Shown one piece after another: positions 9,229 to 22,858 of a DNA stretch of 45,760 nucleotides. The translations under genes were made by a program, and so were the position numbers. This DNA is from Candidatus Hydrogenedentota bacterium (GTDB lineage Bacteria; Hydrogenedentota; Hydrogenedentia; Hydrogenedentales; CAITNO01): contig JAAYBR010000069.1 in assembly GCA_012730045.1 (NCBI GenBank), forward strand, positions 1 to 45,760, read 5' to 3'. The notes beneath the pieces are model-generated. The model was not told where the DNA came from and searched no databases. It was given only the letters and a program-made list of their open reading frames with translations. Position 1 is the first letter of the stretch. Every line of letters starts with the position of its first letter.

Positions 9229-10335
9229 CTATTCCTCCGCGCCGCCGCCGTAGACGTCGGCGATGATCTGCTCGACGATGGTCTCCGCCGCGAGGGGGTG
9301 CGCCAGGGAAACGGCGGCCGCGCCCATGGTTGCGCGGCGGGCCGGGTCGGCCAGCAGCTCCCGAAGCAGCGCCTCCAGCCGGTCAGGCGTGCAGTCGGCG
9401 TCCCTCACCAGCACCGCAGCCCCGGCCTCCTCGAAGGCCCGGGCGTTGTGCTCCTGGTGGTTGTCCGTGGCGAAGGGGTAGGGCACGAGGATGGACGGCT
9501 TGCCCAAGACGGCGATCTCCGCGGTGCTCGACGCGCCGGCCCTGCTCACGATGAGGTCCGAAGCGGCGCAGGCCGCCGGCATGTCCTCGATAAACGGAAA
9601 CACGTGGACGTGCGGCCCCGCCTTGGCCGCCGTCTCCCGCGCCGCCGGCGCGTCCGACTTGCCGGTCATCCACAGGAACTGCAGCTCGTCCGGCGCGAAG
9701 CGCCCGGCCACCTCCGACAGGGCGCGGTTGAGCGTGCGCGCGCCCTGGCTCCCGCCGCAGGAAAGCACCACGGGCACCCCCGGCGCGAGGCCGAAACGCG
9801 CCAGCGCCTCGCCGCGCGGCGGCACGTTGATGAACCCCGAGCGGACGGGGTTGCCCACGACCCGCGCGCGGTCGGCGGGGAAGTTCCCGATGGTGTCGGG
9901 GTAGCTCAGGAACAGGCGCGTGGCGCGGGCGGCGCAGAGCCGGTTGGCCATGCCGAGCCGCTTGTTCTGCTCGTGGAGAAAGGTGGGGATGCCCATGCGC
10001 TGGGCCGCCCACACGAGGGGCAGGGAGACATAGCCCCCCACGCCGACGACGGCCCGGGGCCGGAAGGCGCGCAGCAGGAGGGCGCAGCGGAACACGCACC
10101 AGGCGAGCTTCGCCAGCGTCCACGCCATGCGCGGCGTTTTCCGCCGGGACCACCCCTCCACGGGCACGCCGCGGAACGGCACGTCGGCGTTGCGGCTGAC
10201 GGTCTCCTCCATGCCCCCGGAACGGCCCACCCACCGGATGAGCAGCCGGGGGTCGCGGCGGCGCAGCTCCTCCACAATGGCCACGGCGGGCGAGGTGTGG
10301 CCCCCCGTGCCCCCGCCGGTGATCATCACGCGCAT
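9229..10335 (-). CDS. murG: UDP-GlcNAc:undecaprenyl-PP-MurNAc-pentapeptide GlcNAc transferase MurG
   Basis: MurG adds GlcNAc to lipid I on the inner face of the membrane, giving lipid II. The 368-residue protein has the GT28 N-terminal loop GGGTGGHTSPA (7-17), HEQNKRLGMANR, GGSQGA, and the C-terminal donor site SRAGASSTAEIAVLGKP followed by DNHQEHNA. Start ATG 10335 has a strong AAGGAGG; the frame is open upstream but that part lies in the ftsW region. It is the last gene of the dcw operon, 25 bp after ftsW. No murC, ddl, ftsQ, ftsA or ftsZ follows, so these are elsewhere. Confidence 0.95.
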   Translation of the reverse strand: MRVMITGGGTGGHTSPAVAIVEELRRRDPRLLIRWVGRSGGMEETVSRNADVPFRGVPVEGWSRRKTPRMAWTLAKLAWCVFRCALLLRAFRPRAVVGVGGYVSLPLVWAAQRMGIPTFLHEQNKRLGMANRLCAARATRLFLSYPDTIGNFPADRARVVGNPVRSGFINVPPRGEALARFGLAPGVPVVLSCGGSQGARTLNRALSEVAGRFAPDELQFLWMTGKSDAPAARETAAKAGPHVHVFPFIEDMPAACAASDLIVSRAGASSTAEIAVLGKPSILVPYPFATDNHQEHNARAFEEAGAAVLVRDADCTPDRLEALLRELLADPARRATMGAAAVSLAHPLAAETIVEQIIADVYGGGAEE

Positions 10336-10360
10336 GGGCGCGCCTCCTTTCCGGGCGCGC

Positions 10361-11506
10361 TCACGCGCCCGCCTGCACCGGCCCGCCCCCGGCCACGTGC
10401 GCGGGGTGCCGGTGCTGGACCGGGGCGCGCTGTTCCGCGGCGGCCTGGGACCCGATGTTCGCCACCACCCCCGCGGCGGCGAGGCACACCATGATCGAGG
10501 TGCCGCCGTAGCTGACAAAGGGAAGCGGAAGGCCCTTGGTCGGCAGCAGGCAGAGGTTGACCGCGATGATGAAGAAGGCCTGCGCGCAGATCATGGCGCA
10601 GAAGCCCGTCGCCAGCAGGGTGCCGAACATGTCGGGGGCGTTCATCGCAATCCGCAGCATCACCCAGGCGAGCAGGAGAAAGGCCAGCACGGTCAGCAGG
10701 GTGCCCACAAACCCGAGTTCCTCCCCGACCATGGCAAAGATGAAGTCCGTGTGCGCCGCGGGCAGGTAGCCGAGCTTCTGCTCGCCCGCCCCGGGTCCCT
10801 TCCCAAAAAGGCCCCCCTGCGCGAAGGCGGACATGGACTGGATGAGCTGCCACCCCCCGTCCTCCCGGTAGGACCAGGGGTCCAGGAAAACCAGCACCCG
10901 CTCCAGACGGTGGGGGGCAAATTTGACCAGCGCAAAGCCAAGCCCCGCCACGAACGCCCCCGCCCCCGCCAGGTACCCCCGGTGCGCCCCCGCCACAAAA
11001 ACCATGACGCCCGCCGCCAAAACCATCATGAACGGGATGCCCGCGTCCCGCTGGGCCACCACGGGCAGGGAATAGACAATGGCGGTGAGCATGGGAAAGG
11101 CGCAGCCGACCCAGAAGCGCTTGATCTTCGCCTGGTGCTGGGTGAGTTTCACGGCGAGCAGGACAATCAGGGCAAACCGGGCGAGTTCGGAGGGCTGAAG
11201 GCTGAAGCCGGCGACCTTAATCCAGCGCGTGGCCCCCCCGGTGACCCGGCCCACGAGCAGCACAAGCACCAGCAGCACCACGGAGACCCAGATCATGCTG
11301 CGAAACACCCGCTCCTCGCCGAGCTTGTGATAGTCCAGGTGCAGGGTGAACAGGAAAAGCATGAGTCCGATTGCCAGGGCGACCAGGTGCTTGCTGAAAG
11401 TCCGCAGCCCCCCTGTCTGCACAACGCTCACGCTGAACACCATGAGCATCCCCAGGGCGCACAGGCTGAGGACGGTCAGGATCAGGATGGTCGTGTCGCG
11501 CTTCAT
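10361..11506 (-). CDS. ftsW: SEDS-family peptidoglycan glycosyltransferase FtsW
   Basis: FtsW is the septal SEDS polymerase that works with the FtsI transpeptidase. The 381-residue protein has about ten hydrophobic segments, QPSELARFALI after a charged loop, EELGFVGTL, and SYGGTSIMVCLAAAGVVANI near the C-terminus, all typical of FtsW/RodA. Placement between murD and murG favours FtsW over RodA. The start ATG overlaps the murD stop in an ATGA, so translation is probably coupled. The last 35 residues are hydrophilic with His, Gln and Pro. A longer frame to 11545 runs into murD and lacks support. Confidence 0.94.
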   Translation of the reverse strand: MKRDTTILILTVLSLCALGMLMVFSVSVVQTGGLRTFSKHLVALAIGLMLFLFTLHLDYHKLGEERVFRSMIWVSVVLLVLVLLVGRVTGGATRWIKVAGFSLQPSELARFALIVLLAVKLTQHQAKIKRFWVGCAFPMLTAIVYSLPVVAQRDAGIPFMMVLAAGVMVFVAGAHRGYLAGAGAFVAGLGFALVKFAPHRLERVLVFLDPWSYREDGGWQLIQSMSAFAQGGLFGKGPGAGEQKLGYLPAAHTDFIFAMVGEELGFVGTLLTVLAFLLLAWVMLRIAMNAPDMFGTLLATGFCAMICAQAFFIIAVNLCLLPTKGLPLPFVSYGGTSIMVCLAAAGVVANIGSQAAAEQRAPVQHRHPAHVAGGGPVQAGA

Positions 11507-12897
11507 GGAATGTTCTCCAGAGTCTCTTCCGGGGGAAGGCCGCACACCGCGCGCACCGCGCGCTTGAAGTCCCGGCCCCGCTCCTCAAAGTTGTTGTACA
11601 GGTCAAAACTGGCGCAGGCGGGCGAAAGCAGCACCGCCCACCCCGGCTCGGCCAGCGCGCGGGCGCGCGCCACCGCGTCGTCCATGCCGTCCGCGCGCTC
11701 CGCGGGGACCACGTCGCCAAAGGCCGCCTCGAGGAGCGGGGCGTCCTCGCCCATCGTCACCAGCCGGACCGCATGGCGGCGCACGGCTTCCCGCAGGGGC
11801 CGGTAGTCGTCGCCCTTGCCCCGTCCGCCCGCGATCAGCACCACGGGCCGGTCGAAACTCTCCAGGGCCACGCGCAGGCTGTCCACATTGGTGGACTTAG
11901 AGTCGTTGTAGTAGTCGCAGCCGCGCACGGGGTCGCGCAGCACGAACTCGATCCGGTGCTCCACCCCCCGGAACGCGCGCAGGGCCGCCACGGCGCGGTC
12001 CAGCGGCAGGCCCGCCCCCGCCATCACCGCCAGCGCCGCCATCACATTCTCCAGGTTGTGCGCCCCGGGCAGGGGGTTGTCGCCGGGGTCCATGATCTTG
12101 TCCGCCCCCAGGAACACCGCGCCGCCCTCCGTCCACACGCCGTCCGCAAGCCGGCCCGCCGCGCTGAAGGGCACCCGCCGCACCCCCTCCGGCACGGGCA
12201 GGACTGCCACGCGCGGGTCGGCGGCGTTGAGCACCGCCGCGTCGCCCGCGCACTGGCGCGCGAAGACGCGCGCCTTCATGGCCGCGTAGGCCTCCAGGGT
12301 GCCGTGGCGCCTGAGATGGTCCGGCGTGACATTAAGCACCGCCGCGACGCACGGGCGAAAGCGGTCCGCCGTCTCCATCTGGTAGCTGCTGACCTCGACC
12401 ACCGCCCAGTCGGGCGTTTCGGGCAGCAGCACAGCCTCCGAGAGGGGCGTGTCGTTGTTGCCCGCGAGGGCCGCCGTCTTCCCGCAGGCCTCCACCATGG
12501 ACCGGAGCAGTTCCGTCACCGTCGTCTTGCCGTTGGTGCCGGTGACGGCGAGCATCGGCGCGGCGCAGAAGCGCGACGCCAGCTCCAGTTCTCCCGCCAC
12601 GGGCACGCCGCGGCGGCGCGCCGCCTCCAGCGGGGGCAGGGCCGCGGGCACGCCGGGACTCGGCACGATCAGGTCGGCGGACTCGAAGACGCCGTCGCCG
12701 TGGCCGCCCGTCTCATAGGGCACGCCGAGCGCGTCACAGGCCTGTTTGAACGGCGCGAAGCGGCCGCCGTCGGCGCTCTCGGTGATGAAGGGCGCCGCGC
12801 CCTCGCGCAGCAGCAGGCGCGCCGCGGCGGCCGAGGAGCGCCCCAGGCCCACCAGCACGGCGCGTTTGCCCTTCAATCCTTTCTCCAGCCAGTCCAC
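11503..12897 (-). CDS. murD: UDP-MurNAc-L-alanine:D-glutamate ligase MurD
   Basis: MurD adds D-glutamate to UDP-MurNAc-L-Ala in the cytoplasm. The 464-residue protein shows the N-terminal nucleotide-binding turn VLVGLGRSS (14-22), the ATP loop AVTGTNGKTT (117-126), GNNDTPLSEA, EVSSYQ, and the NDSKSTN motif of the C-terminal part. It starts with GTG at 12897, 13 bp after mraY, with only a weak Shine-Dalgarno (AAGGCGG). Confidence 0.95.
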   Translation of the reverse strand: MDWLEKGLKGKRAVLVGLGRSSAAAARLLLREGAAPFITESADGGRFAPFKQACDALGVPYETGGHGDGVFESADLIVPSPGVPAALPPLEAARRRGVPVAGELELASRFCAAPMLAVTGTNGKTTVTELLRSMVEACGKTAALAGNNDTPLSEAVLLPETPDWAVVEVSSYQMETADRFRPCVAAVLNVTPDHLRRHGTLEAYAAMKARVFARQCAGDAAVLNAADPRVAVLPVPEGVRRVPFSAAGRLADGVWTEGGAVFLGADKIMDPGDNPLPGAHNLENVMAALAVMAGAGLPLDRAVAALRAFRGVEHRIEFVLRDPVRGCDYYNDSKSTNVDSLRVALESFDRPVVLIAGGRGKGDDYRPLREAVRRHAVRLVTMGEDAPLLEAAFGDVVPAERADGMDDAVARARALAEPGWAVLLSPACASFDLYNNFEERGRDFKRAVRAVCGLPPEETLENIP

Positions 12898-12910
12898 GTG
12901 TCGCCGCCTT

Positions 12911-14392
12911 TCACCGAAGTTTCAGGGTTCCGAGGCTCATCAGCGCGAACAGCAGCGCGATGATCCAAAAGCGCATGGTCACCTTCGTCTCCACCCAGCC
13001 CAGCAGCTCGAAATGGTGGTGCAGCGGGGCCATCCGGAACACCCGCCTCCCCGTCGTCTTGAAGGAGGCCACCTGGATCACCACGCTCAGGGCCTCCAGC
13101 GTGAACATGCCGGCCACGATGGGCAGCAGCAGCTCCTGCTTGGTCAGCAGCGCCAGGGCGGCGATGGCCCCGCCCAGGGACAGCGAGCCCGTGTCGCCCA
13201 TGAACACCTCGGCGGGGTGGCTGTTGAACCAGAGGAACCCCAGCCCCGCGCCCAGCAGCGCGCCGCCGAACACAAACAGCTCGCTCGCCTCGGGCACATA
13301 GGTCAGGAACAGGTAGTGCGACCAGTCGGCCCGGCTGACGATGTACGCGATGGCGGCGTAGGTGATGATGGAGATCACCGAGACCCCCGCCGCCAGGCCG
13401 TCCAGCCCGTCCGTCAGGTTGACCCCGTTGGACATGCTGACCACGACCAGCACCACGAAGAGGACGTAGAGGAAACCCAGGGGAATGAACAGGTCTTTGA
13501 ACCCCGGCACGCCCAGTTTGGTGTGCAGATCGGGGCTGCTCTGGGCCACGGCGTCGGGGAACGCCGCCTCCAGCAGGAGCCGGTTCGCCCGCACCACCTC
13601 CTTCTCCGACAGCGCGGGGAATCCCCGCGCCAGCAGGTCTTCCAGCTCCCGCGCGGGGGTCCCGGGCGTCCACGCCGCCGCGTCATAAAGGCCCCGGTCG
13701 CGCAGCACGCCGTTCAGCCCGAGCAGCACCGCGCGGCGGTCCTCCTCGTCAAGCGCGGCGTGCCCGCAGGCGGCGAGCAGCCGCTCCCGCACCTTTTCGG
13801 GGAAGCGCCCCCACATCCGGGCGGCCAGGCCGTCGCCCCCGTCGGCGGCGCCGGTCAAGGCCGTCTCCAGCCGCTCCCAGCCGATGATGTCGCGCGGGTA
13901 CACGGCGGAGGCGCTCACGGTGAGGGGGTTGAAGTACAGGTACGTTCCCAGCAGCAGGCCGACAAGAATCTGGCCCGCGAACTTCGCGCGCGCGCTCAGT
14001 CCGTCGTTGTGCTTCCGTTTCAGCTTGATGAAGTCGTCCAGGAACCCGACCACGCCCAGCGCGAGAAACACCAGCGTGGCGGCGAGCAGCAGCCGGTTGG
14101 TCAGCCGCCCCCAGAGCACCAGGGCAAACACGGTCGCCAGAATGACCATGATGCCGCCCATGGTGGGGGTGCCGCCCTTGCCCTTGTGGAGGGCGTGCAG
14201 GTCGGCCACGTGGTCCTTCTTGATGATCTGGCCGATCTTCATCTCGCGCAGGCGGCGGATGATCGCCGGGCCAAACAGCAGCGTGAGGGCGAACGCGGTG
14301 AACGCGGCCCCGCCCGCGCGCACCGTGTGGTAGGTGAGCACGTTCAGCACGCTGAAGCGGGACATCAGCATGTCCGCCAGATAATAGAACAC
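12911..14392 (-). CDS. mraY: Phospho-MurNAc-pentapeptide translocase MraY with a large extracytoplasmic insertion
   Basis: MraY moves phospho-MurNAc-pentapeptide onto undecaprenyl phosphate, giving lipid I. At 493 residues it is about 130 longer than the usual 360. The catalytic landmarks are intact: GFLDDFIK (D119, D120), NLTDGLDGLA (325-334), WFNSHPAEVFMGDTGS (388-403) and HHHFE (458-462). The extra length sits as one block at about residues 158-298, in the loop after a membrane segment ending YLYFNPL and before the segment starting LFIPLG. In known MraY topology this loop faces the periplasm. The block is soluble-looking, rich in Arg, Glu, Asp and Leu and predicted helical. Start is GTG 14392 with AAGGA upstream. 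A sequencing artefact is unlikely because the frame is continuous. Confidence 0.94.
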   Translation of the reverse strand: MFYYLADMLMSRFSVLNVLTYHTVRAGGAAFTAFALTLLFGPAIIRRLREMKIGQIIKKDHVADLHALHKGKGGTPTMGGIMVILATVFALVLWGRLTNRLLLAATLVFLALGVVGFLDDFIKLKRKHNDGLSARAKFAGQILVGLLLGTYLYFNPLTVSASAVYPRDIIGWERLETALTGAADGGDGLAARMWGRFPEKVRERLLAACGHAALDEEDRRAVLLGLNGVLRDRGLYDAAAWTPGTPARELEDLLARGFPALSEKEVVRANRLLLEAAFPDAVAQSSPDLHTKLGVPGFKDLFIPLGFLYVLFVVLVVVSMSNGVNLTDGLDGLAAGVSVISIITYAAIAYIVSRADWSHYLFLTYVPEASELFVFGGALLGAGLGFLWFNSHPAEVFMGDTGSLSLGGAIAALALLTKQELLLPIVAGMFTLEALSVVIQVASFKTTGRRVFRMAPLHHHFELLGWVETKVTMRFWIIALLFALMSLGTLKLR

Positions 14393-14425
14393 CGCGCCGT
14401 CCTTTCCAGCCCGCCGGGGCGGGCG

Positions 14426-15781
14426 TCACTCCACGCCGTAAAGCCTTTTCAACGCCTCCGTGAACAGCTCCATGCGGATGCCGCGCGATCCCTTCACCAG
14501 CACCACGTCGCCGGGGGCCGCGGCGCCGAACACCGCCGCCGCCGCCGCCGCATGGTCCGCGAACGTCTCCGCCAGGGGGATCCCCGCCGCGCGCGCGCCG
14601 TCCACAATGTCCGCCGCGTGCTCGCCCAGGGCCAGCACCCGGTCCGCGCCCCGCGCCGCCGCCGCCGCGCCGAGTTCCTGGTGTAATGCCGCGGAGGCCT
14701 TCCCCAGTTCCCGCATTTCTCCCAGCACCGCAATCCGCGCGCCGCCGCCGGGATGGTCGCGCAATGCCTCCAGCGCGGCGGCCATGCTGGCGGGGTTCGC
14801 GTTGTACACGTCGCTGAGCACTGTCAACGGCCCCATCTGAAGCTCCTGAAACCGGCCCAGCCGCGCGCAGGCCGCGCGCAGGGGCGTCTCGATGTCCGTC
14901 ACACCGTGGCGCAGGGCGACCGCCACCGCCAGCAGCACGTTGGTCGCGTAGGCGCGCACGCGCAGCGGCAGGACCAGCCGGCCCACGGGGTCCACTTCAA
15001 GCACCAGCTCGCCGGAGGCGTCGAAAGCCGCCGAAAGGAGCCGCACGTCGCCGCGGCGGCCATAAACCACCTTGGGCCCCCGGTGCCGGTCGCCCATGGC
15101 CGTGCAGTGCGGGTCGTCCGCGTTCACGTAGAAGACGCCGTCCGGCGGCAGCTCCTCCATGATCTCCGCCTTCGCGCGGGCCACGTTCTCAATGGTCCCG
15201 AATCCCTCCAGATGCGCCGGGGCCACCAGGGTCACGGCGGCCTCTTCGGGCCGTGCGATCCGGCAGAGCTGCGCGATTTCTCCCGGGTGGTTCGCCCCCA
15301 TCTCGATGACGGCGAAGTCCGTGTCCGGCCCGATTTCCAGCAGCGAGAGGGGGCAGCCGATGTCGTTGTTCAGGTTGCCCCGCGTGCGCGTCACGCGGAG
15401 GCGCGTCTCCAGCAGCCCCGCGATGAGCTCCTTGGTCGTTGTCTTGCCGCAGGAGCCCGTGAGGGCGAACACCCGCGCGCGGGCCCGGCCCCGGTGCCAC
15501 GAGGCGTACTGCTGGAGCGCCGCCAGCGGCGACGCGACGGTCAGGCAGGGGCCGCCCTCCGAGGGGACGGAGCACACGGCGGCGGCGGCCCCGGCGGCGA
15601 AGGCCGCGGGCACGAAGCGGTTGCCGTCGAAGTTCTCCCCGCTCAGGGCGAAGAAGACCTGGCCCGGCGCGAGGGCCCGTGTGTCGGTGGACACGCCGGA
15701 CAGGGCGACGGCTCCCGCGCCTTCGGGCGCGGGAACTCCCAGCGCGCCCGCCAGGTCCGCCAGTGTCCTCCGGTCATCCAT
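14426..15781 (-). CDS. murF: UDP-MurNAc-tripeptide:D-Ala-D-Ala ligase MurF
   Basis: MurF adds D-Ala-D-Ala to the UDP-MurNAc tripeptide, finishing the cytoplasmic pentapeptide precursor. The 451-residue protein has the N-terminal substrate segment GVSTDTRAL (29-37), ATP loop TGSCGKTTTKE (108-118), NLNNDIG (136-142), EMGANHPGEI (160-169) and a C-terminal Mur-ligase domain with DVYNANPASM. The start ATG lies 8 bp inside the end of murE, so translation is probably coupled. Confidence 0.95.
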   Translation of the reverse strand: MDDRRTLADLAGALGVPAPEGAGAVALSGVSTDTRALAPGQVFFALSGENFDGNRFVPAAFAAGAAAAVCSVPSEGGPCLTVASPLAALQQYASWHRGRARARVFALTGSCGKTTTKELIAGLLETRLRVTRTRGNLNNDIGCPLSLLEIGPDTDFAVIEMGANHPGEIAQLCRIARPEEAAVTLVAPAHLEGFGTIENVARAKAEIMEELPPDGVFYVNADDPHCTAMGDRHRGPKVVYGRRGDVRLLSAAFDASGELVLEVDPVGRLVLPLRVRAYATNVLLAVAVALRHGVTDIETPLRAACARLGRFQELQMGPLTVLSDVYNANPASMAAALEALRDHPGGGARIAVLGEMRELGKASAALHQELGAAAAARGADRVLALGEHAADIVDGARAAGIPLAETFADHAAAAAAVFGAAAPGDVVLVKGSRGIRMELFTEALKRLYGVE

Positions 15782-17261
15782 GGCCGAGCGCCTTCAGCGC
15801 CGCCAGGGCGCATTCGCGGTCGTCGAAGTGACGCCGTTCGGTTCCGATGATCTGGTAGTTCTCGTGGCCCTTTCCCGCGATCATGACGAGGTCGCCGGGG
15901 CCGGCCATCGAGACGGCCGTGCGGATGGCCTCCTCGCGGGACTCGATGACCAGATAATCACCGCCCTTGGTTTTTCCCGCGCGCTGAAGCCCCACCTCCA
16001 CGTCGAGGAGAATGCGGTGCGGGTCCTCGGTGCGCGGGTTGTCCGAGGTGAGCACACAGAAGTCGGACATCTGCGCGGCCACGGCGCCCATCTTCGGGCG
16101 TTTGCCCCGGTCGCGGTCGCCGCCGCATCCGAACACGGTGAGGACGCGCTTCCCGCACAGCGCCCGCGCGGCCCGCAGCACGTTGGCCAGGCCGTCGTCG
16201 GTGTGCGCGTAGTCCACAATCACATGAAACGGCTGCCCCGCGTGGACGGCCTCAAAGCGCCCGTCCACCTTGTCCAGAGACTCCAGCCCCGCCGCCACCT
16301 CCGCCACGTCCAGCCCCAGTCCCAGGCACAGCGCGGCGGCGCACAGGGCGTTGGACACGTTGTGCATGCCCGCGAGGCGGATGGACAGGTCCGCCGCCCC
16401 CCAGGGGGAAACCAGCCGGAACGCGGTGCCGGAGAACAGCATGCGCACCCCCTCGGCGCGCACCTCGCCGCCCGCGCCGTAGCCGTGGCAGGGGACGGCG
16501 CTGAGCCCGCGGAAATACGGGGCCGCCGGGTCCTCCGCATTCACCACGGTGAAGCGGGGCCATTCGGCGGCCGGGTCCGGCGTGATCGCGGAGAAAAGGC
16601 GGCCCTTCGCCGCCCGGTAGCGGTCCATGTCGCCGTGGTAGTCGAGGTGGTCCTGGGTAAGGTTGGTGAAGGCCGCCGCCGTAAAGCTCACTCCGGCGAC
16701 CCGGTCCTGGTCGAGGGCGTGGGAGCTGACCTCCATGACCACGTGGCGGTCGCCGGCGTCCAGCGCGCGGGCAAACATGGCCGCCAGATCCTCGGGAAAG
16801 GGCGTGGTGTGCGGGGCGTTCAGGGTCTCCCCGCCGACATGATAGGCGATGGTGCCGAAGTTTGCGCAGGGGCGGCCGGCGCGGGCCAGCACGGCCCGCA
16901 CCAGGTGCGCCGTGCTGGTCTTTCCGTTGGTGCCCGTGACGCCGAGCACGCACTGGCGCCGGGTCGGGTTGCCCGCGAGGGCCTGGGCCAGCAGCGCGGC
17001 CGCGCGGCGCGGCTCCGGCGCGCGCAGGTAGGGGATCCCGTGGAACTCCCGAATGCCCTCGCGCCCGCCGAGGACGGCGACCGCCCCGGCCTCCGCCGCG
17101 CGCGCGGCATACTCATGGCCGTCCGCATGGACGCCCGCGAGGGCGGCGAAGACAAAGCCGGGCCCCACCCTGCGGGAGTCCTCCGTGACGCCCGTGGCGA
17201 TGAAGTCCGGCCCTTCCTGAAAGGGAATGCCGGCCGCCTCACATAGCTGGCTGCGGTTCAT
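15774..17261 (-). CDS. murE: UDP-MurNAc-dipeptide:meso-diaminopimelate ligase MurE
   Basis: MurE adds the third amino acid of the stem peptide. The 495-residue protein carries TEDSRRV (26-32), the ATP loop GVTGTNGKTST (107-117), the conserved MEVSSHALDQDRV segment and DNPR at 407-410. DNPR is the specificity motif of meso-diaminopimelate-adding enzymes, so the wall is of the DAP type. The start ATG lies 23 bp inside the 3' end of ftsI. It matches the Mpl recycling ligase at 37633, which handles the tripeptide with the same residue. Confidence 0.95.
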   Translation of the reverse strand: MNRSQLCEAAGIPFQEGPDFIATGVTEDSRRVGPGFVFAALAGVHADGHEYAARAAEAGAVAVLGGREGIREFHGIPYLRAPEPRRAAALLAQALAGNPTRRQCVLGVTGTNGKTSTAHLVRAVLARAGRPCANFGTIAYHVGGETLNAPHTTPFPEDLAAMFARALDAGDRHVVMEVSSHALDQDRVAGVSFTAAAFTNLTQDHLDYHGDMDRYRAAKGRLFSAITPDPAAEWPRFTVVNAEDPAAPYFRGLSAVPCHGYGAGGEVRAEGVRMLFSGTAFRLVSPWGAADLSIRLAGMHNVSNALCAAALCLGLGLDVAEVAAGLESLDKVDGRFEAVHAGQPFHVIVDYAHTDDGLANVLRAARALCGKRVLTVFGCGGDRDRGKRPKMGAVAAQMSDFCVLTSDNPRTEDPHRILLDVEVGLQRAGKTKGGDYLVIESREEAIRTAVSMAGPGDLVMIAGKGHENYQIIGTERRHFDDRECALAALKALGHG

Positions 17262-19488
17262 TTTCCTGCTTTACCGTGTCCTCCGCCGGAAGGGGGGCGC
17301 CCCTCCGTGCGAATTCAAGCCTGCACACCAGGTCCTCGCCGAGCGCGGTGCCCGGCGGGGGGTTCTGGGCCACCACCCACCCCTCGCCCTGGGCGTCCAT
17401 GGGCACGCCCAGCCGCTGCAGCCGCTCGCGCGCCTGCCGCTTGGTCATGCCTTCCAGGTCGGGCAGCGAGGTTTCCAGCCGGTCGCCCATGTTCCGGGCG
17501 ACCAGTTCCAGCCCGTCCAGCGGGGTGATCATGGCGGAGAGGGACTCGTCAATCGGGACAAAGGCGGCCGTGTCGGGATCCGCGTCCTCCACCGGCTCCG
17601 GCTCCGCGGCGGCCTTGGCGGGCGCGGGCTTCTCCTTCGGATTCTTCGCCAGCTTCTCCTTTTCCGCCTTCGCCTTCTCCTTCATGTGCTTGGCGACGAG
17701 TTCCGGGTCCGTGACCGGGTCGCCGGGAACGTTCATGGAGGCCAGCGCCTCGCCGACCACCTTCTTGAAGACCGGCCCGCACACATACCCTCCATACCTC
17801 AGGCGGATTTTGGGTTCCTGGATGACGATGGCGGCCACAATTTGGGGATCCTTGACCGGGGCGAAGCCCGCGAAGACCGCCGTGTAGCGGCTGGCGTCGT
17901 AGCCGCCGCCGCCGGCCCTGGCCATCTGCGCCGTGCCGGTCTTGCCGCCGGCGCGGTACTCCATCATGTTCGCCGGCTGGCCGGTGCCGTGCAGCACCGC
18001 CTGGTGGCACAGCATGCGCATGGTCTCCACGGTGCGCGGGGAGAGGATGCGCTCGGAAACCGCCGACTCGTGCTGGTAGGTGACCCGGCCGTCCCGCGCC
18101 ACGGCGCGCTCCACGAAGTAGGGCTCCACCACGCGCCCGTCGTTGGCCAGCACCGCAAAGGCGCGGGCAAGCTGCAGCGTGGTGACGGAGATCTCCTGCC
18201 CCATGGGCAGGGCGCCCATGCTCAGTTTGGACCATTTGCTCCGGGGACGGAAGAGGCCGACGCTCTCCCCGGGGAAGTCGCGGGACGTGGGGGCGGCGAA
18301 CCCGAAGCGCCGGATCCACTCCTCCATGCGCGCCTCGCCGAGCATGGCGGCCACCTTGATGATGGCGATGTTGCTCGACTCCTCGAAGCACTTCCAGAAG
18401 GGCTCCACCCCGAGCTTGTGAAAGTCGCCGATGGAGTGCCCGTAGGGGTTGAAGCGCCCCCCCTCGCAGTTGATCATGGTGTTGGGTGTGATCAGGCCGT
18501 GCTCAAGCGCCGCGGCGGCCGCCACGATCTTGAAGGCGGAGCCGGGCTCGAACACGTCCACCAGCGCGCGGTTCTTGCGCAGTTCGGCGGGAAATTTGTC
18601 GTAGTCGTTCGGGTTGAACGCGGGGCGGCTGGCCAGCGCGTAGATTTCGCCCGTCTTCGGGTTCATCACGACGCCCATCGCCTCCTTCGCCTCCGTCTCC
18701 GCCATGCGCGCGTCGAGGGCCGACTCCAGATTGTGCTGGATGTTCAGGTCTATGGTGAGCTGAAGCAGTTCCCCCCCCTCGGCCTCCCGGTAGTCCAGGG
18801 TCTCCGAGGACAGCGGCCGGCGGCGCGTGTCCGCCCGCGCGCGCAGCATGCCGGCGCGGCTTTTCAGGTGGGCGTTGTAGGCCTTTTCCACCCCCTCGCA
18901 CAGCTCCCCCGACCGGTTGACGTAGCCCAGCAGGTGCGCCGCAGCGTCCTTGTGGGGGTAGTGCCGGACAGTCTCCTTCACCACCTGCACCGCGCCGCCG
19001 GTCTCGTCCTGCAGGCGTTTTGCCTCCTCGTCGGGCAGGTCCGTCATCCAGCGTTTAAGCATGGCGAACTTCCGGTCCTTGCCGTCTTTACCGGTCCTGA
19101 CCAGCGCGGCCCGGGCATCCTCGGGGGACAGGCCGACCCGCTCGGAAATCAGGGCGGCCACCGCGTCCCGCCGGTCGTCCGGAACCTTTCGCGGGTCCAC
19201 CCACAGCGAGGAGGCCTCCCGGTTGGTGGCGAGGATCACGCCGTTCCGGTCGAATATCTCCCCGCGCGGCTCCGTGATCGGAATTTCCACCACATGAAAC
19301 TCCTGCTCCTCCATCAGCTTCTCCCCGGGGGTGAAGTGAAGCAGGTGAAGCCGAAGCACCAGCACAAAGGCCACGGCGGCGAAGATGACGAACACCGTCC
19401 AGGCGGCATGCCGCTGGGGGGCTCCCGGGCGCTCACCGTCCAGCCTCAGCAGCATCGGCGTTTTGAAGGAGAATTTGCGGTAGCCCAT
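17239..19488 (-). CDS. ftsI: Septal transpeptidase FtsI (PBP2x-like) with C-terminal PASTA domain
   Basis: FtsI cross-links septal peptidoglycan with FtsW. The 749-residue protein has one N-terminal membrane segment (29-51), a PBP dimerisation domain from about residue 66, and a transpeptidase domain with SAFK (317-320, catalytic S317), SSN (371-373) and KTG (516-518). A 60-residue Lys/Ala/Pro/Glu-rich linker (about 600-660) leads to one PASTA-like domain (about 675-727, DLEGMTKRQARERL). PASTA domains on this enzyme are more usual in Gram-positive PBP2x/SpoVD. Start ATG 19488 has GGAGG 7 bases upstream; a longer frame to 19566 crosses into the ftsL end. Confidence 0.94.
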   Translation of the reverse strand: MGYRKFSFKTPMLLRLDGERPGAPQRHAAWTVFVIFAAVAFVLVLRLHLLHFTPGEKLMEEQEFHVVEIPITEPRGEIFDRNGVILATNREASSLWVDPRKVPDDRRDAVAALISERVGLSPEDARAALVRTGKDGKDRKFAMLKRWMTDLPDEEAKRLQDETGGAVQVVKETVRHYPHKDAAAHLLGYVNRSGELCEGVEKAYNAHLKSRAGMLRARADTRRRPLSSETLDYREAEGGELLQLTIDLNIQHNLESALDARMAETEAKEAMGVVMNPKTGEIYALASRPAFNPNDYDKFPAELRKNRALVDVFEPGSAFKIVAAAAALEHGLITPNTMINCEGGRFNPYGHSIGDFHKLGVEPFWKCFEESSNIAIIKVAAMLGEARMEEWIRRFGFAAPTSRDFPGESVGLFRPRSKWSKLSMGALPMGQEISVTTLQLARAFAVLANDGRVVEPYFVERAVARDGRVTYQHESAVSERILSPRTVETMRMLCHQAVLHGTGQPANMMEYRAGGKTGTAQMARAGGGGYDASRYTAVFAGFAPVKDPQIVAAIVIQEPKIRLRYGGYVCGPVFKKVVGEALASMNVPGDPVTDPELVAKHMKEKAKAEKEKLAKNPKEKPAPAKAAAEPEPVEDADPDTAAFVPIDESLSAMITPLDGLELVARNMGDRLETSLPDLEGMTKRQARERLQRLGVPMDAQGEGWVVAQNPPPGTALGEDLVCRLEFARRGAPLPAEDTVKQENEPQPAM

Positions 19489-19516
19489 TTTCAGGCCTCC
19501 CCCGGGTGGTTGCCGG

Positions 19517-20062
19517 TTACAGCGGCGCCATGAGCGCCTCCAGAGACTTGTCCAGCGAAGAGTCATCCGCCGCCAGCGCCGGGACGGCGGCCGCCGGCGC
19601 GGGGCCGGCCTGCGGCGCCGACCCGGCCGGACTGGGCGCCGCGGCCAACAGGGCCCCGCGGATCCCCCCGGCGTCCCGCGGGGCGGCCGGGGCGGGCGGC
19701 ACGGCGAGGGGCGGGAGAACCTCCGGGGCGTCCAGCAGCAGGGGAAGCTCGAACAGGGTGTCCATCCGGACCACCTCGACCTGCTCCAGCGCGGGCATGC
19801 GGAGCCCGAGCGCCTCGGCCTGGGCGGTCAGCCATTCCATGCTTTTCATCTGCGCCTCGAGCGCGAGGGTCTCGTCCAGCCGGCGCACGGTGTTTCTTCG
19901 CTCCGTGTCGGCCTTGTGGAACTGGTAGTCCGTCTGGCGCAGCTGGATGTTCAGGGCCGCGTCCCAGGTGAGCGCGCCGAACAGGACGGCCACCAGAGGC
20001 GCCCAGACAATCCACCCGTAGCGCGCCTGCCGCACCAGCATTCTGCTGCATCCCTTGTACAT
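19517..20062 (-). CDS. ftsL: FtsL-like bitopic division protein
   Basis: This 181-residue protein is called FtsL-like from its shape and place between rsmH and ftsI, as sequence conservation in FtsL is low. It has a short basic cytoplasmic N-terminus, one membrane segment (about 17-36), a helical coiled-coil-like stretch rich in Arg, Glu and Leu (40-80), and the LTAQAEALGLRMP segment typical of the FtsL end. An Ala/Pro-rich tail of about 70 residues, unusual for FtsL, follows. Start ATG 20062 has AAGGAGG. The stop is 28 bp before ftsI. It should hold FtsI/FtsW together through FtsB-like pairing. Confidence 0.78.
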   Translation of the reverse strand: MYKGCSRMLVRQARYGWIVWAPLVAVLFGALTWDAALNIQLRQTDYQFHKADTERRNTVRRLDETLALEAQMKSMEWLTAQAEALGLRMPALEQVEVVRMDTLFELPLLLDAPEVLPPLAVPPAPAAPRDAGGIRGALLAAAPSPAGSAPQAGPAPAAAVPALAADDSSLDKSLEALMAPL

Positions 20063-20066
20063 CCGC

Positions 20067-21032
20067 TCACGCCTCCTTTCCGTCGCCGCCGGCGAGCCGC
20101 TCCGCCACGCGCAGCCGCGCACTCTTCGCGCGGGGATTTTCCCGCGCCTCTTCGGGCCCCGGAACCACGGGCCGCGCAACCGGCAAACGGAACCGCGCCG
20201 GAAACGACGCCCCCCGGCGCCCGTCGCGCAGCAGCTCCACCACCGGCCTCGAGGCCTCCCGAAACAGGGTCTTCACAATCCGGTCCTCGCCCGAGTGGAA
20301 GGTGATGGCCACCACCCGCCCTCCGGGCGCCACCGCCTCCAGCGCCTGCCCCACGCCCGCGCGCAGGGCCGAAAGCTCGTCGTTCACCGCGATGCGCACC
20401 GCCTGAAACACCGTGCGCGTCTCGGCGGGCTCGCCCTTCACAAAGGGCAGCGCCTCGCGCACCGCCGCCGCCAGGTCCTCCGTCGTCTCCATGCGCCCCG
20501 CGCGCGCGCGCGCCAGCACGGCCCGCGCGATCCGGCCGGCGGGCCCGATGTCGCCGTATTCGCGGAGCACCCGGGCCAGTTCCGCCTCCGTGGTCCCCGC
20601 CAGCCAGGACGCCGCGGTGACCGGGGCGGTCGTGTCCATGCGCATGTCCAGCGGCCCCGGCGCCTGAAAGGAGAATCCGCGCCCCGGCGTGTCTATCTGC
20701 ATGCTGGAAACCCCCGCATCAATGAGCACACCGTCCACAGGACCCCAGCCCAGGCCGGACAGCACCTCTTTCAACTCTCCGTAGTTGGCGCGCACCACCC
20801 CGGCGGACCCATGGGGCGCCAGCCGCCGACGCGCCGTCTCCACTGCGGCCGGGTCGCGGTCCAGCGCCAGCAGACGGCCCGTGGTGAGCCGCTCCGCAAT
20901 GGCCGCGGAATGCCCCCCGGCCCCCGCCGTGCAGTCCACATACCGGCCGTCCGGCCGCACCGCCAGCCACTCCAGCGCCTCCCGCAGCATCACGGGGACA
21001 TGAAGCGCGGCGCCGCCGTTCGTGTCGGCCAT
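20067..21032 (-). CDS. rsmH: 16S rRNA m4C1402 methyltransferase RsmH (MraW)
   Basis: RsmH methylates N4 of C1402 in the 16S rRNA P site using SAM, and is a standard dcw-cluster gene. The 321-residue protein has HVPVMLREAL at the N-terminus, the SAM loop DCTAGAGGHSAAI, LIDAGVSSMQIDTPGRGFSF and the closing ITFHSGEDRIVK motif, all typical. Start ATG 21032 has GGAGGGACC just upstream, 20 bp after the STAS gene. Four bases separate its stop from the ftsL start. Confidence 0.95.
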   Translation of the reverse strand: MADTNGGAALHVPVMLREALEWLAVRPDGRYVDCTAGAGGHSAAIAERLTTGRLLALDRDPAAVETARRRLAPHGSAGVVRANYGELKEVLSGLGWGPVDGVLIDAGVSSMQIDTPGRGFSFQAPGPLDMRMDTTAPVTAASWLAGTTEAELARVLREYGDIGPAGRIARAVLARARAGRMETTEDLAAAVREALPFVKGEPAETRTVFQAVRIAVNDELSALRAGVGQALEAVAPGGRVVAITFHSGEDRIVKTLFREASRPVVELLRDGRRGASFPARFRLPVARPVVPGPEEARENPRAKSARLRVAERLAGGDGKEA

Positions 21033-21052
21033 GGTCCCTCCGGAACGGGTGC

Positions 21053-21406
21053 TCAGGCCGCCACGGGGGCGGAAAACCCGGTGACCGCCTGCACCTCGGT
21101 CTCGTGGCAGTCAAACTGGTGCGTCAGCGCCATCTGCCGGAGCAGCATGCGCATGTACAGGCTCAGGCAGGCCAGCTTAAGGTCGCCCTTCGCCGCCCGG
21201 AACTGGCCAAGCCGCTCCAGAATCACCGCCATGCTCAGATAACTCACAAACCCCACCCCCGCCAGATTCAGCACCACCTTGTGGCGCCCGTCGCGCAGGC
21301 ACCCGGAAAGCGCCAGCCGCAGCACGGCAACGCCCTCCTCGTCAATCACGCCGCGAAGACGCAGCACCGTCACAGCCCCGTTCTCCAGCCGCTCCACGTT
21401 CAGCAT
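21053..21406 (-). CDS. STAS-domain protein (anti-sigma-antagonist-like) inside the dcw operon
   Basis: A 117-residue protein made of a single STAS domain, the fold of SpoIIAA/RsbV anti-sigma-factor antagonists and the MlaB lipid-transport subunit. Features are VTVLRLRGVIDEEGV (first strands), VVLNLAGVGFVSYLSMAVI (the central strand and loop), then two helices. In classical antagonists the loop has DSSG or SSAG with a phosphorylated serine; here the loop reads SYLSMAV and the phospho-acceptor position seems to be Met, so control by a kinase of the usual kind is doubtful. Its start overlaps the end of mraZ by 7 bp with AAGGGAG upstream, so it is co-translated with the dcw genes. No anti-sigma kinase is nearby. 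Confidence 0.82.
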   Translation of the reverse strand: MLNVERLENGAVTVLRLRGVIDEEGVAVLRLALSGCLRDGRHKVVLNLAGVGFVSYLSMAVILERLGQFRAAKGDLKLACLSLYMRMLLRQMALTHQFDCHETEVQAVTGFSAPVAA

Positions 21407-21885
21407 CCCGTGCTCCCTTCATCCGTTGTCAGCCCGCAGTCCCTCATCCGGCGGCCGAACAGCCCGGCCGCCACAGCCTTGTAGGTGTCTTTCTGGCCCT
21501 GCTGGTATGCCTTCCATCCCGCCACGCTCCACAGTTCGAGCGTCTCGCCGACTCCGATCAGGATCGCCTCGCGCAGGAAGCCCGCGTAGTCCTTCAGCGG
21601 CGCGCCGACCAGCAACCGGCCCTGGGCGTCAAGCTGCGTGAACGACGCGGCCCCAAAGTGGCGCAGGAACGCCAGCACCTCGGGGTCCATGCCCCCGTCC
21701 TTCAGGCGGCCCATCACCTCGCGGTACTTTGGCTCGGGATAGACAAAGAGCGCATCGTCAAATCCGCGGGTGACCGCCCAGGACAAATCCCCCCGGTCCT
21801 GCATGAGCTTGCGGATGTCCATGGGCACGGGAAACCTTCCGCGCTCGTCCAAAGACACGTGATATTCGCCGAAGTAGGTGCTCAT
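21400..21885 (-). CDS. mraZ: Transcriptional regulator MraZ
   Basis: MraZ is the AbrB-like ring-forming regulator at the head of most dcw operons. The 161-residue protein has the two SpoVT/AbrB-type repeats: GEYHVSLDERGRFPVP (6-21) and FTQLDAQGRLLVGAPLKDYAG in the second half, both with the D-x-x-GR signature. It is slightly longer than the usual 140-150 residues, with a C-terminal Cys/Gly/Thr-rich tail. Start ATG 21885 is preceded by a poor Shine-Dalgarno and a leader of about 47 nucleotides. It probably represses its own operon. Confidence 0.93.
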   Translation of the reverse strand: MSTYFGEYHVSLDERGRFPVPMDIRKLMQDRGDLSWAVTRGFDDALFVYPEPKYREVMGRLKDGGMDPEVLAFLRHFGAASFTQLDAQGRLLVGAPLKDYAGFLREAILIGVGETLELWSVAGWKAYQQGQKDTYKAVAAGLFGRRMRDCGLTTDEGSTGC

Positions 21886-21938
21886 GACTCAACCCGTTGG
21901 TTCCGCAAAAACTCCCAAATAAGCCACGGAACACCCCC

Positions 21939-21967
21939 AATCTATCACGTTCACGCCCAAATGTCAA
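21939..21967 (-). promoter_or_regulatory. Promoter of the dcw operon
   Basis: On the minus strand a perfect -35 TTGACA (21962-21967) and -10 TAGATT (21939-21944) are 17 bp apart. TGA before the -10 makes it an extended -10. Transcription should start near 21932. TGGG triplet-plus motifs occur around the promoter but not at the regular 10-bp spacing expected of MraZ boxes. Confidence 0.75.
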
Positions 21968-22029
21968 CTCTTATTCTTGCGTAACCAGCATTGTATGAAG
22001 AGGATAGGAAAGAATCCAAACCCGCAAAA

Positions 22030-22075
22030 GCGCGATATGTTGTGGTTCTTTCAGAGAGCATAGCACATATTGTGT
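22030..22075. promoter_or_regulatory. Degenerate NrdR-like box pair upstream of mraZ
   Basis: Two sites matching the NrdR consensus at 11 (22030-22045) and 12 (22060-22075) of 16 positions are 30 bp apart. The second shares ACACAATAT with the box at 1802 when read on the minus strand. They lie about 100-145 bp upstream of the mraZ transcription start, the same place as the 1771-1817 pair relative to thyX. This is weaker than the thyX pairs. Confidence 0.4.
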
Positions 22076-22100
22076 TTTGCGCGCATAAGGACGGGGGAAC

Positions 22101-22140
22101 AAAAAAAGCCGGACCGGTCAGACGGGTCTGACTGGTCCGA
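22101..22140 (-). terminator. Rho-independent terminator after the DUF3299 gene
   Basis: On the minus strand a 14-bp stem with one mismatch (arms around 22126-22139 and 22110-22123) is followed by GC and seven Ts (22101-22107). It ends the ABC-DUF3299 operon and separates it from the dcw operon. Confidence 0.8.
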
Positions 22141-22174
22141 CGAGGTCGGCACTCAGGGCATGAAGGGGTGACGG

Positions 22175-22858
22175 TTACTGTGCGGGCGGTGTGTCCGTTG
22201 GCGCGGGGGCCTCCGCGCCGGGAGTCTCCGGCGGCGTGTAGCCGGGCAGGAGTTCCTCCTCATCGCCGTCGCGGAGCTTGCGGAAACCCTCCTGGAGGTG
22301 CACCCGGTGGTCTTCGCCGACCACCTTGTCCGTCTGCTCCTCGTCCTTGACGGCCTCGTTCCAGCGGGCTTCCTCGATGGTGTAGAAGAACATCTGCTTG
22401 GGCCCCTCGTGCAGGCGGAGGCGGCCGCCGATGAGCACGGGCTCGTTGACCATGTCGGCCGGCTTGGCGAGCTTGACCTCGATGATGTCGCGCATGGGGG
22501 GCGCCTCGCAGAAATAGCAGGTCATGGGCACGGGCAGGAGCATGAACTCGGTGACGTTCTTGAACTGGTCAATGGGGCTCATGAACCCGCAGATGTTGAC
22601 GAGGCGGCCGTCCTTTTTCTTGAGGGTCTCGGGGAAACCCGCGCCGGTGCTGCGCTTTCCCGTGACGCTGCGCAGCTCCTCCCAGTCCACAACCTCCACG
22701 CCGTCGCTGCGGTGCTTCTCCTCGAAGGCCGCGCGCATCTGCTCGTAGCGCTCGCGCAGGGCGTCGCGGCGGGTGTAGCCGTTGACCAGGACGATGCCCG
22801 CGAGCACGGCGATCACGCCGACCAGGGTCAGGAGGTCGCGTTTGGCTTTGCGTCTCAT
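22175..22858 (-). CDS. DUF3299-like membrane-anchored protein
   Basis: A 227-residue protein with one N-terminal membrane segment (9-27) and an exported domain that resembles DUF3299: WEELRS, LVNICGFMSPID, then EFMLLPVPMTCYFCEAPPMRDIIEV with a CYFC cysteine pair (114-117). The C-terminus is acidic and Pro-rich. DUF3299 proteins are found beside MacB-like ABC genes; as I recall, one belongs to the zinc-regulated Zrg system of Vibrio cholerae. Here it is the last gene of a three-gene operon, 30 bp after the permease, with AGGAAG upstream of its ATG. A metal-binding role for CYFC is inference. Confidence 0.68.
   Translation of the reverse strand: MRRKAKRDLLTLVGVIAVLAGIVLVNGYTRRDALRERYEQMRAAFEEKHRSDGVEVVDWEELRSVTGKRSTGAGFPETLKKKDGRLVNICGFMSPIDQFKNVTEFMLLPVPMTCYFCEAPPMRDIIEVKLAKPADMVNEPVLIGGRLRLHEGPKQMFFYTIEEARWNEAVKDEEQTDKVVGEDHRVHLQEGFRKLRDGDEEELLPGYTPPETPGAEAPAPTDTPPAQ

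Follow-up and report, generated by a model that had tools for sequence, protein, structure and literature searches.

The window, meaning the whole stretch of 45,760 nucleotides analysed here, comes from a Candidatus Hydrogenedentota genome of 4.46 Mb (155 contigs, 97.5% complete) and carries a dcw cluster in which mraZ, rsmH, an ftsL-like gene, a division PBP gene, murE, murF, a mraY-type gene, murD, ftsW and murG follow one another in the usual order (Table 1). The names of the genes from murE to murG were inferred from their domains and order. Where the window differs from the common cluster is in one additional gene, located between mraZ and rsmH and encoding a short single-domain protein that scores 43.3 bits against the STAS profile PF01740 (cut-off 22.6), which places it in the STAS superfamily. 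Its stop codon is followed by rsmH after 20 nt, and a sequence scan of mraZ, the STAS gene and rsmH revealed no terminator-like site among them; an Rfam search of positions 19000–22500 returned no match. The mraZ product, clearly recognized by Pfam, scored 75.8 bits against TIGR00242, under that model's cut-off of 98.35. The ORFs and Pfam matches thus bear out the original prediction of a STAS gene lying between mraZ and rsmH and overlapping the former. The division PBP of this genome carries a C-terminal PASTA domain (PF03793).

Table 1 Features of the dcw locus, in window positions
Feature	Position	Strand	Evidence and remarks
Sigma-70-like promoter TTGACA-17-TAGATT, upstream of mraZ	21939..21967	-	1 found vs 0.2 expected in shuffles
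Degenerate TGG repeats resembling MraZ boxes, across the -10 region	21914..21949	-	Sequence reading
mraZ, 161 aa	21400..21885	-	PF02381, 68 bits; 7-nt overlap with STAS start
dcw-linked STAS protein, 117 aa	21053..21406	-	ATG start; PF01740 match
rsmH (mraW), 321 aa	20067..21032	-	PF01795, 289.4 bits; TIGR00006, 277 bits
ftsL-like gene, true start uncertain	19517..20179	-	NF053549 FtsL_Actino, E 0.0033 (below cut-off); between rsmH and PBP
Division PBP (ftsI-like)	17239..19566	-	PF00905, PF03717, PF03793
Remaining dcw genes: murE, murF, mraY-type, murD, ftsW, murG	9229..17261	-	Pfam domains; usual order

In the order, 58 of 61 loci have TTGAC at a distance of no more than about 105 nt ahead of mraZ. 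The TGG repeats that overlap the predicted promoter are imperfectly spaced in the window itself. Across the 61 upstream regions of the order, TGG pairs spaced by 10 nt occurred 77 times against 6.5 in shuffles (z 28.7), and pairs spaced by 11 nt 44 times against 6.3. As MraZ sites are described as direct repeats in the accessible part of PMC8475190, these MraZ-box-like repeats ahead of the operon make it probable that MraZ controls the STAS gene. The arrangement recalls the MraZ autoregulatory loop of E. coli and Mycoplasma in having operator-like direct repeats upstream of mraZ, but differs from it in that the next gene of the operon is the STAS gene. The proposal that the STAS protein is made together with the division genes is supported by the overlap with mraZ, the single predicted promoter and the phylum-wide gene order, and co-production therefore appears likely from sequence.

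Gene order in relatives and in other lineages

Conservation was assessed in 68 genomes of the order, comprising the window's own and 67 relatives from 11 families. A dcw-type STAS gene was present in 64 of these, the opposite of the absence from relatives that had been named as grounds for refutation. The order mraZ-STAS-rsmH could be read directly in 62 of 63 loci (L003-L065), one of these 62 (L024) having a partial mraZ at a contig end; in two loci (L044, L067) the contig end falls within the STAS gene, which rsmH then follows. In the four genomes lacking a dcw-type STAS gene (G037, G043, G064, G065), the assemblies do not cover the stretch between mraZ and rsmH: three (G037, G064, G065) have neither a mraZ nor a rsmH match, and in G043 the contig ends 54 nt upstream of rsmH. 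Two of them, G064 and G065, encode canonical STAS proteins only, at another place. No genome among the 68 was seen to have adjacent mraZ and rsmH genes without the STAS gene. Chance insertion or an assembly artefact is ruled out by this phylum-wide gene order, and the word "inserted", used of the gene in the original prediction, is misleading. With start codons picked by rule, 44 of 61 loci in the order show an overlap between the reading frames of mraZ and the STAS gene. Some lineages (L265, L206) instead show a tight junction between the STAS gene and rsmH (a gap of 1–5 nt or an overlap), with 195–375 nt between mraZ and the STAS gene. When a profile built from 16 relatives was searched against named genomes, 30 loci were recovered, 27 of them titled Candidatus Hydrogenedentes or Hydrogenedentota and the remaining three uncultured bacterium, Gammaproteobacteria and Rhodothermaeota.

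To cover other lineages, a profile of 26 dcw-linked STAS sequences (A1) was searched over 386 genomes. Matches of at least 117 bits came only from the order and from G091, G100 and G101, with the next match at 98 bits; a partial gene in G049 scored below the group at or above 117 bits. The three additional genomes are all those of another phylum in the sample, and each has mraZ-STAS-rsmH. A further screen covered the 141 other genomes beyond the order whose STAS match reached 1e-12; mraZ was found in 115 of these, and 119 mraZ places were scanned. The STAS gene lay between mraZ and rsmH in 19 of the 115 mraZ-bearing genomes, from 15 families, one of the 19 being a short or weak STAS-like ORF (L196); in the other 96, no STAS gene was detected adjoining mraZ. 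The 1e-12 screen misses divergent cases, as shown by G097, which has the same gene order and was found among 12 genomes without a STAS match at that threshold. In total, 23 genomes from 17 families outside the order (3, 19 and G097) have mraZ-STAS-rsmH, and no additional strong case was recognized among the matches listed for a second profile (A3) in the same 386 genomes. Ten of the more divergent STAS sequences from outside the order were compared with Pfam, and all ten scored above the cut-off of PF01740 or PF13466. The premise that mraZ and rsmH are almost always adjacent consequently needs qualifying: outside the order, a STAS gene separates the two in 19 of the 115 genomes that have both a STAS match and mraZ.

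Fold, switch site and family

An AlphaFold2 model of the STAS protein (pLDDT 94.6) adopts a predicted STAS fold. In comparisons with solved structures it comes closest to SpoIIAA as bound to SpoIIAB (Foldseek E 3.8e-9; Z 19.6 and rmsd 1.5, with 113 residues aligned), with 22% identity to chain B of 1thn, and chains of SLC26, MlaB and stressosome proteins were also among the structure matches. The modelled fold is informative of family, not of function. Like SpoIIAA and RsbV (PF01740, TIGR00377), the window protein is a single-domain STAS protein of the same length and fold, but it sits in the dcw cluster, scores 42.3 bits against TIGR00377, under the cut-off of 53.45 for this antagonist family, and has S-Y-L-S in place of their D-S-[ST]-G loop. 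MlaB, which acts without being a sigma regulator, shares the STAS fold. The window protein differs from it in scoring 27.8 bits against the MlaB-type STAS_2 profile PF13466 (cut-off 29.2) and in having no transporter genes nearby. The second STAS match of the genome is part of a separate STAS_2-MlaE permease fusion encoded elsewhere.

At the loop where SpoIIAA has FMDSSGLG, the window protein reads FVSYLSMA, with Tyr56 aligned to the phospho-serine of SpoIIAA, which we take to be Ser58. The suggestion that the usual phospho-serine is lacking is supported: in an alignment with SpoIIAA, only one of 85 dcw-linked STAS proteins (L057) has Ser or Thr at this position, and 62 of 85 have Tyr (48 of 63 in the order, 0.76; 14 of 22 outside, 0.64). 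In contrast, all 38 non-dcw STAS proteins have Ser or Thr (Tyr fraction 0.00); their selection rested on similarity to A1 or on genome and took no account of the loop. The two groups are also separated by Val59, Glu64, Arg65, Tyr84 and Gly93 (window numbering), in the order as well as in other lineages. E64, R65 and Y84 are present in the window protein, which deviates at positions 59 and 93 (M59, A93). In the predicted model, the signature positions sit on helix 56–71 and on or beside helix 83–91, and this helix 2/helix 3 face is presumably the one that SpoIIAA presents to its partner in the SpoIIAB complex.

A maximum-likelihood tree split 42 dcw rows from 36 non-dcw rows by one branch (SH-aLRT 78, not starred), several rows being long branches. 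With the loop columns left out, this modestly supported split becomes weaker and the free tree needs three changes, but a tree holding the dcw rows together was 13.9 lnL better (p-AU 0.82). A control grouping of the order's dcw rows with its non-dcw STAS proteins was 21.6 lnL worse, though unrejected at 0.05 (p-AU 0.09). A single origin of the dcw-linked STAS proteins is favoured rather than shown.

Possible partners and role

We propose that the dcw-linked STAS protein is a phosphorylation-independent adaptor made with MraZ and most likely acting on MraZ, a putative role to which we assign a probability of roughly 0.4. By its sequence context, the STAS gene comes second in a transcription unit whose predicted promoter carries MraZ-box-like repeats, and translational coupling may set its product in a fixed ratio to MraZ. 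The helix 2/helix 3 face would then bind a product of the dcw cluster, MraZ being the most likely one, and binding would change how strongly MraZ holds its operator. The STAS protein would accordingly take part in MraZ autoregulation as a co-regulator rather than act as a sigma-factor switch. Against this, MraZ is, to our knowledge, functional in E. coli and Mycoplasma with no STAS protein as partner. As far as the accessible part of PMC8475190 goes, MraZ represses dcw and MraW antagonizes MraZ, and a four-gene cluster is spoken of for Mycoplasma; the STAS protein could possibly relay this reported antagonism. The earlier idea of a constitutive partner survives in part, since a phosphorylation-independent partner is the best remaining reading.

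The place of the gene bears on whether MraZ or RsmH is the more plausible partner. Outside the order, 26 genomes had a STAS match and no TIGR00242 match; rsmH was present in 24 of these, and one (G179) was set aside for a weak MraZ on the spot. A STAS gene lay upstream of rsmH in none of the remaining 23 genomes without mraZ, compared to 19 of 115 with mraZ, a difference at p 0.024 (one-sided Fisher test) in a small set uncorrected for relatedness. This argues against the STAS protein working with RsmH or in translation, for instance by regulating the 16S rRNA methyltransferase as one of its subunits, and we know of no such partner being needed by RsmH in well-studied bacteria. In favour of RsmH are the STAS-rsmH gaps of only 1–5 nt, or overlaps, in many loci, and a mirror-tree analysis in which the partial correlation of distances was 0.55 with RsmH against 0.45 with MraZ. 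The mirror-tree comparison is not decisive as a means of choosing between the two, and the rates do not single out MraZ. On balance we consider a function with RsmH rather unlikely, with MraZ the leading candidate for the putative binding partner.

A link to sigma factors was part of the original prediction, and the loss of the phospho-serine together with the close fit to the SpoIIAB-bound form of SpoIIAA (Z 19.6) could indicate a constitutively active anti-anti-sigma factor that, being unphosphorylatable, always binds its anti-sigma factor and so ties division to a sigma regulon. The S56A form of SypA, which remains active despite its kinase according to the available part of PMC10120452, counts for this possibility, as do PF13581 matches in 63 of the 68 genomes of the order. 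However, no RsbW/SpoIIAB-type kinase, and thus no cognate kinase as known for SpoIIAA and RsbV, was found in the window's genome, where at 97.5% completeness a missed gene is possible; the lone PF13581 match above cut-off is a hybrid histidine kinase with Response_reg, HisKA and HATPase_c domains. At 1e-6, PF13581 had no match in five of the 68 genomes (G000, which is the window's own, G001, G008, G011 and G013), all of which keep the dcw-linked STAS gene. The matches in the other 63 make this argument weaker outside the five. In addition, the gene keeps its place with mraZ rather than with genes for sigma factors or kinases. Canonical partner switching is rejected for the window's genome, given the missing kinase and the loss of Ser/Thr at the phospho position, the sigma-factor link by a standard partner switch is left unsupported, and the always-active variant appears quite improbable. 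Tyr56 could itself be the switch, phosphorylated by a tyrosine kinase in the lost serine's stead; Tyr occupies the exact phospho-acceptor position in most dcw-linked STAS proteins, but the different residue in 23 of 85 makes such a role very doubtful. PF07228 gave two matches above cut-off in the window's genome, one better matched by PP2C_2, with no link to the dcw-linked STAS gene. The clearest SpoIIE-type phosphatase domain of the genome (L078, G000:C41:54801) lies on a different contig from the dcw cluster.

As STAS is a general adaptor fold, as the SLC26, MlaB and stressosome matches illustrate, the protein might alternatively bind a dcw-encoded membrane or cell-wall protein, a lipid or a nucleotide, in the manner of transporter STAS domains and MlaB, and the likely co-transcription with division genes is in keeping with this. 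The score below the PF13466 cut-off, the absence of mla genes among the scanned dcw neighbours, and the fact that the genome's MlaE has its own STAS domain speak against such a divisome or envelope adaptor, which we judge unlikely; no evidence was found for the lipid- or nucleotide-sensing module suggested earlier. Operons can hold unrelated genes, and some genomes have other, unknown short ORFs between mraZ and rsmH, so that the operon might merely supply steady expression to a protein of unrelated purpose. That 11 families of the order and 17 others have kept the gene in one place, with signature residues in common, renders this highly improbable. The adaptor acting on MraZ remains our preferred reading, and a broader evolutionary account is possible, though held more tentatively: the dcw-linked STAS proteins may form an old, unrecognized division-cluster family of one origin, located beside mraZ in many lineages, in which Ser gave way to Tyr as the protein left sigma switching and became a MraZ cofactor.

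The STAS gene is a real and conserved member of the dcw cluster that has apparently not been described; its domain family is known already, and its place, spread and signature appear to be new. No description of the mraZ-STAS-rsmH arrangement was found in the open-licence literature, the field of this search, and the gene may be present without comment in genome annotations. In their accessible parts, PMC12283558, PMC8871954 and PMC7688217 make no mention of a STAS gene between mraZ and rsmH, nor does the 17-gene dcw account in that part of PMC8871954 list one. Few bacterial gene orders are as conserved as that of the dcw cluster and the control of MraZ is little known, and a widespread gene directly after mraZ, encoding a signalling fold without the kinase site, is a concrete candidate for such control. 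The conversion of a phosphorylation switch into a fixed adaptor could also be tested on it.

Other ORFs were seen between mraZ and rsmH in a few genomes outside the order. Three of these (L177, L178 and L205, in G241, G157 and G352) are 69–119 aa long, have no Pfam match and seem by eye to have a common motif, R-x-R-x-x-N...G-x-D. Another short ORF, found in two genomes (L180 and L181, in G082 and G231), has a common C-terminal stretch, the L181 copy being without a Pfam match. A 76-aa ORF in G224 (L263), left out of the 19 above, matched STAS weakly (E 6.7e-5, the set searched being small) and is perhaps a decayed dcw-linked STAS gene.
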